DNA from: Alloscardovia macacae
Lineage (GTDB): Bacteria; Actinomycetota; Actinomycetes; Actinomycetales; Bifidobacteriaceae
DNA length: 64,000 nt
Assembly: GCF_002259705.1 (NCBI RefSeq)
Contig: NZ_MWWT01000004.1
Location: 1 to 64,000 of the forward strand
Reading direction: 5' to 3'
Shown here: positions 7,014 to 46,809 of the stretch, one piece after another
Position numbering within the stretch: the stretch's first letter is position 1
Layout: each line of letters starts with the position of its first letter
Notes under the pieces: generated by a model
Told to the model about the DNA's origin: nothing
The model's database searches: none
Seen by the model: only the letters and a program-made list of their open reading frames with translations
Translations under genes and position numbers: made by a program

Positions 7014-8363
7014 ATGGCTATAACGAACGACTACCTCAAGCGCGTCTACGCACAGGCAGAAAAGCGCGACGGCGATCAGCCAGAATTCCTGCAGGCAGTA
7101 CGCGAGGTCTTCGAAACCCTCGGCCCAGTGGTGGAAGCAAACCCACAGTACGAGGCAAATGGCATTCTCGAGCGCTTCATCGAGCCAGAGCGCGTGGTGA
7201 AGTTCCGCGTGTGCTGGGTGGATGACGAAGGCAAGACCCAGGTGAACCGCGGCTACCGCATTCAGTTTAACAGCGCCATCGGGCCATACAAGGGCGGCCT
7301 GCGCTTCCACCCTACTGTAACCGAATCCGTGGTAAAGTTCCTCGGCTTCGAGCAGATTCTGAAGAACTCCCTGACCACCCTTCCTATGGGCGGCGGTAAG
7401 GGCGGTTCCGACTTCGACCCTAAGGGCAAGTCTGACGCGGAAGTGATGCGCTTCTGCCAGGCTTTCATGACCGAACTGCAGCGCCACATCGGCCAGTTTA
7501 CAGACGTTCCAGCAGGTGACATTAACGTAGGCGCTCGCGAAATCGGCTACCTCTTCGGCCAGTACAAGCGCATTCGCGACGAATTCACCGGCGTTCTCAC
7601 CGGTAAGGGCCTGGAATGGGGCGGATCCCTCGCTCGCACCGAGGCGACCGGTTATGGCCTGTGCTACTACACCGCAGAAGCGATGGATAAGCTGCGCGGG
7701 GACTCCTTTGAGGGAAAGACCGTGGTCATCTCCGGCTCCGGTAATGTGGCCATCTTCGCCACCGAAAAGGCGCAGTCCCTCGGGGCGAAGGTCGTGACCG
7801 CCTCGGATTCGAACGGCTACATCTACGATCCAAACGGCATCCAGCTCGACGTGGTGAAGGACATCAAGCTCGGCCACCGTGGACGCATTAAGGAATACGC
7901 CGACCGTGTTCCAGGATCCGAGTATCACGAGGGCTGCGCAGGCGTATGGAGTGTGCCATGCGACATCGCTCTGCCATGCGCGACACAGAATGAGATAGAC
8001 GGAGCTTCGGCTCAGACGCTCGTGGATAACGGCTGCACCGTGGTGTGCGAAGGCGCGAACATGCCATCGACCCCAGAAGCCATCGCGGTCTACCAGAAGG
8101 CTGGCGTGCTCTACGGTCCAGCTAAGGCTGCAAACGCTGGTGGCGTGGCGGTCTCTGGCCTGGAAATGAGCCAGAATTCGTACCGTCTGTCCTGGAGCTT
8201 CGAAGAGACTGACGCGAAGCTCAAGGCCATTATGGAAGACATCGTGGCTAGCTCGCTGGCTGCTGCCGAGAAGTACGGCACGCCTGGCGACCTCATGGCT
8301 GGCGCGAACATCGCTGGCTTCGTGAAGGTGGCGGATTCCATGGTGGCGCAGGGCGCGTACTAG
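7014..8363 (+). CDS. gdhA: NADP-specific glutamate dehydrogenase
   Basis: 449 aa, the usual length for hexameric bacterial GDH. It interconverts 2-oxoglutarate plus ammonium and glutamate in the cytoplasm, the main ammonium-fixing step when ammonium is plentiful. The substrate-binding signature PMGGGKGGSDFDPKG is present with the catalytic lysine at residue 129. A Rossmann motif (VVISGSGNVA, about 240) binds the nucleotide, and the C-terminus contains the family sequence ANAGGVAVSGLEMSQNS. The start is supported by GCGAGGATACATC ATG. The gene is monocistronic. Codon use is strongly biased (CCA for proline, CGC for arginine), suggesting high expression. NADP rather than NAD specificity is inferred from family similarity. 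Confidence 0.97.
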   Translation: MAITNDYLKRVYAQAEKRDGDQPEFLQAVREVFETLGPVVEANPQYEANGILERFIEPERVVKFRVCWVDDEGKTQVNRGYRIQFNSAIGPYKGGLRFHPTVTESVVKFLGFEQILKNSLTTLPMGGGKGGSDFDPKGKSDAEVMRFCQAFMTELQRHIGQFTDVPAGDINVGAREIGYLFGQYKRIRDEFTGVLTGKGLEWGGSLARTEATGYGLCYYTAEAMDKLRGDSFEGKTVVISGSGNVAIFATEKAQSLGAKVVTASDSNGYIYDPNGIQLDVVKDIKLGHRGRIKEYADRVPGSEYHEGCAGVWSVPCDIALPCATQNEIDGASAQTLVDNGCTVVCEGANMPSTPEAIAVYQKAGVLYGPAKAANAGGVAVSGLEMSQNSYRLSWSFEETDAKLKAIMEDIVASSLAAAEKYGTPGDLMAGANIAGFVKVADSMVAQGAY

Positions 8364-8416
8364 GGCGCGGCTGGGGTTATTACTCCGCGATACTGAGAAC
8401 GGAGCTGCGCACAAAA

Positions 8417-8482
8417 TTGGCCAATACTTTTGTCCATTTTCCCACTTTCCATAGGCTGAAAACGGACAAAAGTATTGGCCAA
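8417..8482. repeat. Long intergenic hairpin A (25-bp stem, 16-nt loop)
   Basis: Left arm 8417-8441 and right arm 8458-8482 pair over 25 positions with one mismatch (A8436 with C8463, which would be a G-U pair in a minus-strand transcript). The loop is 8442-8457, exactly 16 nt. The outer 19 bp (TTGGCCAATACTTTTGTCC) are perfect. The T-rich/A-rich end of the stem faces the loop and no U-tract follows, so it does not look like an ordinary terminator. First of three in the convergent gap between gdhA and the gene at 8756. Confidence 0.85.
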
Positions 8483-8510
8483 GTGTGGAGACTCATACAG
8501 TCTTCACACT
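8482..8510. repeat. Short hairpin adjoining hairpin A
   Basis: AGTGTGGAGACT (8482-8493) pairs with AGTCTTCACACT (8499-8510) with one G-U pair and a 5-nt loop. It abuts hairpin A, sharing one base, and is followed by a pyrimidine-rich stretch. It could contribute to gdhA termination. Confidence 0.55.
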
Positions 8511-8537
8511 TCCATCACATCTCTTTCCCTAAGAGAA

Positions 8538-8607
8538 AACTTCCTCCAGGATATTCTCGTTTTTCATGCTTACAGCCGCTAAAAACGAGAATATCCTGGA
8601 GGAAGTT
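8538..8607. repeat. Long intergenic hairpin B (27-bp perfect stem, 16-nt loop)
   Basis: Arms 8538-8564 and 8581-8607 are perfectly complementary over 27 bp. The loop is 8565-8580, again 16 nt. The stem ends in TTTTT/AAAAA next to the loop as in hairpins A and C. The stem sequence is unrelated to A and C, so architecture rather than sequence is conserved. Confidence 0.9.
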
Positions 8608-8664
8608 GAGAGAAGTAGCTCCCACCTTCACATTCCATTCACATTCTCCTTACTGATATAAAAG

Positions 8665-8730
8665 TTACGCTAAAGATTTAGCCATTTTTGACCCCCGCCA
8701 GGGCGAAAAATGGCTAAATCTTTAGCGTAA
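8665..8730. repeat. Long intergenic hairpin C (25-bp perfect stem, 16-nt loop)
   Basis: Arms 8665-8689 and 8706-8730 are perfectly complementary (25 bp, TTACGCTAAAGATTTAGCCA then TTTTT). The loop is 8690-8705, 16 nt, GC-rich. GTTTTTG follows on the plus strand, so this one could also terminate gdhA read-through. It ends 25 bp before the stop codon of the convergent gene at 8756. Confidence 0.9.
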
Positions 8731-8755
8731 GTTTTTGCGCGCGAGACTTTCCCGT

Positions 8756-9562
8756 TTACAGCGCTTCCTGCTCCTGTCCTTTAGACTCTTCAGGATCCTG
8801 AGACTCCATGAGAACAGTTGCATCGTCGTCGTCTTCTCCCGGCTCAGCAACTGCTGCACCTACTGTCTCACTCTCCGGGGATGCTTCGCTCTCCGCAGCC
8901 TTCGCGCGCAGCATCCGTCCACGCACGACGGCCACCACGGCCGCCACTACGAGAACGAGGCCGGCTACCACGAGCACTGCTCCCATTCCGAAGAACCGCA
9001 TATTATCCGCGATAAAGAGGCTGTCTGGGTATCCATCCAGCACGATGAAGCTGATGGCTGTGATGACCATGCCGAGGATGGCGAGGAACGCGACGAAGAC
9101 GTTTGGCGTTTTATTATCCTCGTATTTATTCACGAGATGCACCTGGACTCGTGGACGGTCTGCCGCGCGGTACAGCGGCGGCTGGGCCATGCGTGGAGTC
9201 TGCGCGTAGAACGGCACCTGCTGGCCCGGCTGAGACCCCGGCTGAGCCTGCACGCCCGGCTGAGCATACGGCTGCCCCGGATATCCCGTACCTGGCTGAG
9301 GGTACCCACAGTACGGAGTATATGGCATGTATGGCGCTGCGCCCGGCTGACTCGGCTGACCCGGCTGTGCAGGCATCCCCTGTGCAGGCTGAGGCTGACC
9401 CGCCTGCGGCATCGCCTGAGTCGGCGCGCCCTGCAGATACGCTGGGTTAATAGGCTGCGTCTGATCCTGATCCTGGCCCTGAGCCTGCCCCTGATTCTGA
9501 CTCTGGCCCGCCGAGTGCGGACCTGCTGGCATCGGCATCGTCGTGTTCTCGAAATTTTCCAT
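8756..9562 (-). CDS. Gln/Pro-rich membrane protein, unknown function
   Basis: 268 aa. Residues 1-125 are low complexity (Q, P, G, A, with repeated QPG/QPA units). Two hydrophobic segments follow (about 150-172 and 188-212), and the tail is acidic (EDDDDATVLMESQDPEESK). The start follows AGGAATACATC, 11 bp behind the stop of the upstream PspC-domain gene, so they are co-transcribed. The disordered N-terminus before the membrane resembles many actinobacterial envelope proteins, but no family is recognised. Location beside the PspC locus suggests a role in envelope homeostasis; this is inference. Confidence 0.75.
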   Translation of the reverse strand: MENFENTTMPMPAGPHSAGQSQNQGQAQGQDQDQTQPINPAYLQGAPTQAMPQAGQPQPAQGMPAQPGQPSQPGAAPYMPYTPYCGYPQPGTGYPGQPYAQPGVQAQPGSQPGQQVPFYAQTPRMAQPPLYRAADRPRVQVHLVNKYEDNKTPNVFVAFLAILGMVITAISFIVLDGYPDSLFIADNMRFFGMGAVLVVAGLVLVVAAVVAVVRGRMLRAKAAESEASPESETVGAAVAEPGEDDDDATVLMESQDPEESKGQEQEAL

Positions 9563-13405: not shown

Positions 13406-13503
13406 GCGAGTTTGTAGTCACGAATGACCGTTGACTTTATGAAGTCAACGCATAAACGGCTTAAGTCCGTAAAATCGGTGGTCATTCGTGACGACAAACT
13501 CGC
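13406..13503. repeat. Hairpin element, copy D (inverted mate of 13678-13767)
   Basis: Arms 13406-13429 and 13480-13503 pair over 24 positions with one mismatch (core GTCACGAATGACC). The 50-nt interior itself folds: GTTGACTT-TATG-AAGTCAAC (13430-13449) and a smaller ACGG/CCGT hairpin (13456-13470). The whole would form a branched, cruciform-like structure. It is the reverse complement of the element at 13678-13767 over both arms and the inner hairpin, so the two are diverged copies in opposite orientation. Confidence 0.85.
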
Positions 13504-13508
13504 GTTTT

Positions 13509-13655
13509 TCACATTTCGTTCACATCAGATAATGCATCTGCGAACGCGTCCTCTACAGACTGGTACCGCGTGGCATCGCGCTCTCCACGCATTATCTCGC
13601 GCGCTTCCTCTAGAGCAGCTTCAGTCTCCGCATTATATCGAGTTTCCTTAGTCAT
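13509..13655 (-). CDS. Mini-protein resembling the C-terminal half of RelB/DinJ antitoxins
   Basis: 48 aa beginning MTKETRYNAETEAALEEARE and ending FADALSDVNEM. The YNAETEAAL-EAREIM-G pattern followed by RYQSVEDAF matches, from knowledge of the family, the toxin-binding C-terminal part of RelB/DinJ antitoxins. The N-terminal ribbon-helix-helix DNA-binding half is absent. An ATG with AGAGGGAAGT upstream makes it translatable. No toxin gene is adjacent. It sits exactly between two inverted copies of a hairpin element (13406-13503 and 13678-13767), so it may be a remnant carried by a mobile unit or a decoy antitoxin. It could also be a decaying fragment. Confidence 0.55.
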   Translation of the reverse strand: MTKETRYNAETEAALEEAREIMRGERDATRYQSVEDAFADALSDVNEM

Positions 13656-13677: not shown

Positions 13678-13767
13678 GTTTGTAGTCACGAATGACACTC
13701 CCCTTGACGAGATTAAGCCATTCTTGCGTTGACTTCATAAAGTCAACGGTCATTCGTGACTACAAAC
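13678..13767. repeat. Hairpin element, copy E (inverted mate of 13406-13503)
   Basis: Arms GTTTGTAGTCACGAATGAC (13678-13696) and its exact complement (13749-13767) form a perfect 19-bp stem. The interior contains GTTGACTT-CATA-AAGTCAAC (13728-13747), the same inner hairpin as in copy D seen from the other strand. Located 37 bp beyond the stop codon of mvaS. Confidence 0.85.
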
Positions 13768-21276: not shown

Positions 21277-21369
21277 CACGTTGTGTGTAAATCATCTCAC
21301 GCAGAGGCCCATTTTCTCTGTTCCGAGGACCTTTCTGGGCAAAAAGTGAGACGATTTACACACAACGTG
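21277..21369. repeat. Long intergenic hairpin F (24-bp arms), family with 46671-46749
   Basis: Arms 21277-21300 and 21346-21369 are complementary over 24 positions except A21294 opposite C21352. The stem core TGTAAATCATCTCA/TGAGACGATTTACA, including this same mismatch, recurs in the hairpin at 46671-46749. The loop is 45 nt with a small GCCCA/TGGGC inner stem. In a minus-strand RNA the mismatch becomes a G-U pair. It lies in the 404-bp gap upstream of the permease gene and downstream of the GH3 gene's terminator. Confidence 0.85.
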
Positions 21370-46587: not shown

Positions 46588-46670
46588 CTCCCTCTTTTCG
46601 TATCGCGATACGAGGGCGGAACGAAAACACACTTCGCCCGCCGCCGAACATGCAGGTCGCAGGCACGTAA

Positions 46671-46749
46671 GCTGTAAATCATCTCATTTTGCCCTCTACG
46701 CTCCCTCGATGAGGAGCCTTTAACGCCGAAAAATGAGACGATTTACAGC
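46671..46749. repeat. Long intergenic hairpin G, family with 21277-21369
   Basis: Arms 46671-46690 and 46730-46749 pair over 20 positions except A46681 opposite C46739. Core TGTAAATCATCTCA and its partner, with the same mismatch as hairpin F. The stem ends TTTT/AAAA at the loop like hairpins A-C. The 39-nt loop contains CTC/GAG inner pairs. Located between the terminator 46534-46587 and the end of the small membrane gene. Confidence 0.85.
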
Positions 46750-46809
46750 CAACGTTCCTTTCAGGCTCGCACTCCTCCTTCACACTCCCCTTCCCGCTCT
46801 TCTCACCCC

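Follow-up and report, generated by a model that had tools for sequence, protein, structure and literature searches.

The 64,000-nt stretch of the Alloscardovia macacae genome analysed here (the window) contains, between the convergent genes of glutamate dehydrogenase (7014-8363) and of a protein without a Pfam match (8756-9562, reverse), an intergenic gap holding three long palindromes (Table 1). Their arms measure 25, 27 and 30 bp, and exactly 16 nt separate the arms in each. An earlier note on this DNA had described three hairpins with stems of 25, 27 and 25 bp and 16-nt loops. When measured again these hold, and the third extends from 8665-8730 to 8660-8735, which gives it arms of 30 bp. 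The stems had been called perfect or interrupted by one mismatch, as was confirmed (one mismatch each in the palindromes of families B and A, none in D). The loops, described as identical, share their length and differ in sequence. The stems had also been said to lack any common sequence. By eye they are indeed mutually unrelated, but each has relatives in the genome and all three have a common frame, with AACTT at the outer end and an A/T run at the loop. Loops of 16 nt are confined to the array, being present in 3 of the 10 palindromes detected in the window by a scan with an arm score of at least 12 and loops up to 60. At gathering score, Rfam gave only one rRNA and one tRNA in the whole window. 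No long palindrome with a 16-nt loop was found downstream of gdhA at nine Bifidobacterium loci (gdhA matches 81-87%).

Table 1. Palindromes, motif copies and gene-flanking palindromes in the window and elsewhere in the genome (contig:position); distances from genes count from the first possible start.
Feature	Position	Strand	Details
Palindrome, family B	8414..8485	.	arms 8417-8441 and 8458-8482 (25 bp, 1 mismatch), loop 8442-8457 (16 nt); relatives elsewhere in the genome
18-nt motif TTCACACTTCCATCACAT	8503..8520	+	18 nt from each neighbouring palindrome
Palindrome, family D	8538..8607	.	arms 8538-8564 and 8581-8607 (27 bp, perfect), loop 8565-8580 (16 nt); one relative, C18:66132-66202
Weaker motif copy between D and A	8627..8643	+	2 mismatches; absent from the stricter list
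Palindrome, family A	8660..8735	.	arms 8660-8689 and 8706-8735 (30 bp, 1 mismatch), loop 8690-8705 (16 nt); span 70 nt in the 9 copies of the sample
Palindrome, family G	13411..13498	.	span 88
Weak motif copy beside G palindrome	13508..13525	+	4 mismatches
Palindrome, family G	13679..13766	.	span 88
Palindrome, family T	21280..21366	.	span 87
Palindrome, family T	46667..46753	.	span 87
Motif sites elsewhere in the genome	C1:41105, C1:41220, C1:48580, C18:66097, C19:229271		
G-gene-G			palindromes about 105 nt before start, 21 after stop
I-gene-I			gene C20:151249-152436; palindromes 112 nt before start, 16 after stop
T-gene-T			gene C16:409631-410833; palindromes about 68 nt before start, 1 after stop
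A palindrome, one side only	C19		about 140 nt upstream of the fourth homologue

The palindromes are accompanied by an 18-nt motif, TTCACACTTTCATCACAT, which is a direct repeat with a period of 11 and which we take to resemble a response-regulator box. Six of the seven places with at most two mismatches to this motif lie within 21 nt of an A-D palindrome, either 18-21 nt after it or 7-8 or 18-19 nt before it. Two further places, with weaker matches, are 10 nt away from G palindromes.

The genome comprises 1.89 Mb in 20 contigs, in which the window gap gave 36 matches at E <=10, a count that includes the gap itself, both strands and chance matches. With chance-level matches left out, relatives of the third stem (A) were found at eight other places, of the first (B) at three and of the second (D) at one. 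The array gap had no DNA match in 38 related genomes at E 0.001, and the window and G palindromes had none in the 188 other Bifidobacteriaceae genomes at E 1e-4, where up to three candidates were scored in each. A total of 127 palindromes were detected in 897 kb of the genome; 58 clustered into families and 69 did not. About ten families, named A to I and T, have very constant spans. The span is 70 in 9/9 copies of A, 72 in 4/4 copies of B and 2/2 of C, 68 in 9/9 of I, 64 in 3/4 of H and 89 in 3/4 of E; family D has one copy each of 70 and 71. In family G the span is 88 in 7/13 copies (101, 112 and 113 in the rest), and family T has 76 in 5/17 copies and 86-88 in 12/17. When the gap in an arm pattern was allowed to vary from 8 to 38, it was 20 in 10/12 sites of this genome. 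A looser pattern gave one span in 16/21 sites here, one of the sites not being a palindrome, and in 1/18, 0/11, 1/19 and 0/6 of the sites listed for four congeners. The earlier note had named random loop sizes elsewhere in the genome as evidence against its reading. Such sizes are seen among the unclustered, terminator-like palindromes but not in the families: the unclustered loops are mostly short and scattered, and measure 16 nt in 2/69 (the palindrome at C1:407676, among these 69, is a B copy). Against this background the three 16-nt loops of the array go beyond chance.

Predicted genes hold 0/64 family copies although genes cover 80% of the sequence, according to our own rough gene finder. 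By the same gene finder, convergent gaps hold 13/17 copies of A-D, while such gaps make up 56/348 of all gaps; only 5/13 copies of H and I lie in them. Every H palindrome found (4/4) lies within about 100 nt of an I palindrome (C1:118468/118634, C1:289015/289125, C1:360277/360367 and C12:39873/39980). All nine I copies have TA at start and end, and no target duplication was seen for A-D or T. The T palindromes at C1:176380-176466 and 176754-176840, which are 374 bp apart, have nearly the same loop and a common left flank and represent a recent local duplication. A lone 67-bp palindrome at C20:171497-171563 (arms AGTAATCGGTATTTTTACCA), with weak single-arm matches elsewhere, may belong to a further family.

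The constraint on these elements was examined by aligning 30 copies of families A-D, H and I on their centres; two odd-length copies and one with a repeated loop were dropped, leaving 27 copies, from six families. Pairing shows no excess at the nine positions nearest the centre on either side, and positions 10-15 are almost invariant (CATTTT/AAAATG). Positions 16-31 are paired in 24-27 of the 27 copies where column composition predicts 8-15 (position 21 excepted), counts that are biased because the copies were detected via their pairing, as the spacing counts are not. The arms covary: up to four different bases occur per position, yet pairing is kept, and the centre is free. A hidden inner stem in the loops was considered and rejected (66/216 pairs, shuffle mean 68.6). 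Within families, identity is 78-96% in the arms and 24-56% in the loops, compared with 25-26% for shuffled loops. Some loops are clearly related when compared in the better orientation, so family members are diverged copies of whole elements in which span and pairing have been kept. Identical or related whole elements, loop included, occur amid unrelated flanks, for example the I copies at C20:151165 and 152549.

Six long-distance inverted pairs were found in 897 kb. They comprise a T-T pair without a gene, two overlapping readings of a G-gene-G locus, a G-G pair over two housekeeping-type genes, an I-gene-I locus and one pair with other arms. Insertion sequences with family arms as their ends were sought among the six, and none with a recognisable transposase was present. 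At C1:344882-346351, 25-bp inverted arms (GGCTCTTCTCATTTTTGTGTGTATG) 1470 bp apart match no palindrome family and are perhaps insertion-sequence ends. The G pair and the I pair each enclose one gene of about 400 codons, and the two encoded proteins are homologous (26%, E 9e-31). A profile search found nine such loci in the genome. T palindromes flank a third of these genes and an A palindrome lies beside a fourth (Table 1). Three paralogues have only short repeats on both sides (scores 15, 15 and 18), and those at C20:34.9 kb and C18:41.5 kb have no flanking repeat. The nuclease-like frame beside the A palindrome (L235, C19:227452-229164) reads without a stop into a LuxS domain (luxS), a possible gene fusion. 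Most palindrome copies lie far from any nuclease-like gene, and no cognate gene was identified in this genome for families B, C, D, H and E. Within the array, A is tied to this protein system by a gene on one side only, and B and D by geometry and the common arm frame only.

The nuclease-like paralogues are about 320-470 aa long. A conserved motif, ENGGES..R..GF..P.LQ ... R.DF.W ... E.DG..KY, was found in 34 aligned sequences, with its acidic residues and lysine in 94-97% of them; the G paralogue of this genome has lost it. By eye, the C-terminal part appears to resemble PD-(D/E)XK enzymes of the DUF559 kind. Weak matches to DUF559 were obtained for 3/16 proteins scanned (E 0.022 to 0.14), the best at 15.0 bits, below the Pfam cut-off of 20.6, and no Pfam or NCBIfam model exceeded its cut-off for the proteins scanned. 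The N-terminal part appears to resemble AbiEi weakly, and PADLOC AbiEi matches were obtained for two proteins (E 8.4e-5 and 0.015). No credible match to the nuclease-like protein was found among PDB sequences.

Homologues at E <=1e-8 are present in 118/189 Bifidobacteriaceae genomes, this one included, and in 7/16 genera. Among the congeners, G001 has two and G003 seven, and G002 and G004 have none. The flanks of these genes were scored for repeats between the upstream 450 and the downstream 350 bases, the loci of other genera being the best matches with loci given. A score of at least 20 was reached at 17/27 loci of other genera, 3/9 of this genome and 0/9 of congeners, and at 0/498 control genes of this genome and 0/35 foreign control ORFs. 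At a score of at least 16 the numbers were 17, 4, 5, 3 and 1, respectively. At L275, one of the 17 positive loci, masked letters inflate the score, and an unmasked 58-nt repeat remains. No strong repeat was found at 10/27 loci of other genera. Palindromes in the flanks of the 27 homologues have spacers of 15-17 in 17/39 cases, compared with 7/89 in 800 kb of G001 and G004. Three of the genes have one and the same arm sequence beside them, which was searched for in the 189 genomes with spacers of 4 to 34 allowed. It was found at 17 sites in five genomes, of which five lie in the flanks that had suggested the pattern and 12 are new; the spacer is exactly 16 in 17/17, with mostly different spacer sequences, and the reversed control gave none. 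The earlier suspicion that the geometry itself seems to be selected is thus well supported, both by the exact spans of A, B and I and by this 16-nt spacer at sites of unrelated arm sequence in five other genomes. Arrays at three loci (L250, L260 and L267) have 15-17 nt inside and outside the palindromes.

The pattern extends to Collinsella aerofaciens, in which a homologue (28.5%, annotated 'hypothetical protein') is accompanied by five palindromes, three on its upstream and two on its downstream side, and in each of them GTAAC and GTTAC are 27 nt apart. A direct repeat with a score of 30 is shared by the two sides of the gene, and copies occur at nine places in the record. Another Collinsella palindrome (L313, 2402-2483), with 35-bp arms that start TGTCCCCGAATGCCGG and a 12-nt loop, is unlike those beside the homologue. 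In viral contigs no relative and no pattern match were found, and phage records gave one match, which covers 31% of the query and lies in a fragment that lacks such palindromes. The expectation that G003, with its seven genes, would carry palindrome families failed: none was found in 400 kb each of G001 and G003, compared with 48 family copies in about 800 kb of the genome studied here, a sample partly chosen around matches. Since the homologues of G001 and G003 lack strong palindromic flanks or families, dispersal is a lineage-specific trait that the protein does not need in order to exist. In the flanks of congener orthologues, one of two reciprocal best pairs scores 27; the stretch is not a palindrome arm and therefore says nothing on co-inheritance.

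These features can be compared with several known systems. In the REP/RAYT system a gene is bounded by two palindromes, relatives of which are dispersed in extragenic DNA, and complementary mutations keep the palindromes; the REPs described have a GT(A/G)G head, and 2-4 bases at their centre are unpaired (PMC2817692). The present families are similar in that a gene lies between palindromes of one family (G, I and T in this genome, the loci of other genera scoring at least 20, none of the congeneric loci) and in their dispersed extragenic copies, which are absent in the congeners examined. Unlike REPs, they have arms of 16-30 bp around a spacer of fixed length (about 16 or 26), and they lack the GTAG-type head and the small central interruption, as seen in the aligned A and I copies and the spacer counts. 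The Y1 transposase that defines RAYTs was sought as PF01797 and rejected, with no match in this genome, while a control found PF01797 in 5/14 genomes. The repeat anatomy differs as well, and the system is classed as REP-like with an unrelated protein. AbiEi, the antitoxin and autorepressor of the type IV AbiE system, has been reported in Streptococcus agalactiae to bind inverted repeats of 11 bp-N27-11 bp, also described as 23-3-23, and to repress its own promoter (PMC3985639). Likeness to AbiEi lies in the weak N-terminal similarity and in the N27 spacing, which is like the 27 nt of the Collinsella palindromes. The differences are the nuclease-like C-terminal motif and the palindromes that also lie downstream and dispersed in the genome; at the two loci inspected, no AbiEii partner was evident beside the G and I genes. 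DUF559/Vsr-like endonucleases are similar in the order of acidic residues and in E.DG..K, although all matches lie below the Pfam cut-off, and the papers searched give no link between such enzymes and dispersed palindromes. Stem-loop repeat families, ERIC, BIME and MITEs are likewise dispersed, mainly extragenic and able to fold into stem-loops, and the paper that describes them does not mention Bifidobacterium (PMC2267715). Here, by contrast, the spacer is fixed in length and free in sequence, and a cognate protein family is evident. No paper that pairs palindromes with this protein family was found among the open-access papers searched, a scope too narrow to prove absence.

The palindromes flanking nuclease-like genes suggest that a DNA-binding protein is paired with repeated target sites of its own, a link that has gone unrecognised. 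The interpretation preferred here, in which belief and doubt are about evenly balanced, is that the three hairpins are dispersed copies of two-part sites targeted by a protein family with AbiEi-like and PD-(D/E)XK-like parts, spread in the manner of REP/RAYT systems but without a RAYT. From the conserved motif, the weak likeness to AbiEi and the binding of inverted repeats by AbiEi, we infer a multimer that would recognise two duplex arms at a fixed helical phase and leave the spacer unread. The system would pair repeat families with paralogous proteins. Each target site would consist of inverted half-sites at a fixed distance (16 bp between arms in the array), and a multimer of one paralogue would read the two arms of the palindrome that belongs to it as duplex DNA, so that the arms would have to change together when specificity changes. 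The unread spacer would set the helical phase by its length and so would drift in sequence, not in length. Within or next to this spacer the nuclease-like domain would introduce a nick or a cut, after which a copy of the palindrome (about 65-115 bp) would arise at another intergenic site in the course of repair or replication. RAYTs are thought to copy REPs in like manner, and engineered nucleases that cut between inverted half-sites are alike. Fixed spans, covarying arms, whole elements amid unrelated flanks, the palindromes beside the genes and the conserved motif are shown by the sequences and speak for this interpretation. Against it stand the congeners that carry the gene but lack such flanks and families, the paralogues of this genome with short flanking repeats or none, the one-sided A palindrome at a gene that reads on into luxS, the motif lost from the G paralogue, the families for which no cognate gene was identified, the loci of other genera that have no strong repeat, and the scores of all Pfam and NCBIfam models, which stay below their cut-offs. 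The suggestions made earlier for the array can be revised in this light. Binding sites, for the protein family found here, come closest to the evidence, and they are not necessarily the cruciforms once proposed. A templated array was partly right, in that the three palindromes come from dispersed families whose members recur together in mixed arrays, with the 18-nt motif at quantised distances. As a whole, the earlier interpretation is partly supported.

Other explanations have to be weighed against the preferred one. Is the functional form perhaps a folded strand, a hairpin of RNA or single-stranded DNA whose structure is recognised by this protein family or a different enzyme, while stem pairs evolve through compensatory changes? 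Pairing that survives changes at arm positions with up to four different bases would agree with this, long perfect stems fold strongly, and RAYTs read REPs as a folded strand. However, the two span classes of family T (76 and 87) differ by about one helical turn and the motif distances differ by about 11, both of which suggest duplex phasing, and 15-17 nt inside as well as outside the palindromes would make the choice of hairpin ambiguous. Such span classes and arrays favour recognition of the duplex over the hairpin, short of proof, and the folded strand is considered unlikely. A related possibility is that these proteins use the palindromes as operators or bind them in some other role, and that the copies have spread through ordinary duplication or with a different element, not moved by the protein. 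Repression by AbiEi of its own promoter via inverted repeats (PMC3985639) is in favour of operators, and so are the congeners, in which repeats beside the genes are short at most and dispersed families are missing. Palindromes also lie 1-21 nt after the stop codon of the T, I and G genes, however, where no operator would be expected, and most copies lie far from any such gene; this explanation is judged improbable.

The position of most A-D copies between converging genes and the T runs that follow some stems are what would be seen if the palindromes terminated transcription in both directions or stabilised RNA. The genome has, however, a separate set of ordinary terminator-like palindromes whose loops are short, the spans of the families are exact and their loops large, most H and I copies lie outside convergent gaps, and the flanked genes would be left unexplained. 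Such a role is very improbable as the main explanation; terminator activity may be a secondary use of the palindromes. Equally little, or slightly less, can be said for MITEs of a conventional transposase with the nuclease-like genes as passengers, even though the elements are short and palindromic with sharp ends and the TA at both ends of all I copies is as a TA duplication would give. The long-distance pairs with family arms enclose no recognisable transposase in 897 kb, the T bases just outside the arms are inverted-complementary and not direct repeats, and passengers would not explain why the 17 high-scoring homologues of other genera are flanked by unrelated palindromes.

Returning to the two-part target sites, a wider proposal can be made, which is more tentative. 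Actinobacteria may harbour an unrecognised kind of selfish or domesticated DNA in which winged-helix/PD-(D/E)XK-like proteins, each with its own palindromes, would act as natural paired-half-site nucleases. Such a protein would bind two inverted arms and cut between them, in a spacer (about 16 or about 26 bp) that it does not read; repair at the cut would then add a copy of the palindrome at another intergenic site. As paralogues multiply and their arm specificity drifts, one genome would come to hold several independent site networks. How does one protein seed a genome with its own palindromes? The palindrome families and their proteins would be a second, unrelated answer to this question, which is that of REP/RAYT. 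They also make available a naturally occurring group of proteins, each apparently reading a pair of arms at strictly fixed spacing and with a specificity that differs from the others. A large gene family without a curated name in the Bifidobacteriaceae is now linked to defined DNA targets, and its function is therefore directly testable.
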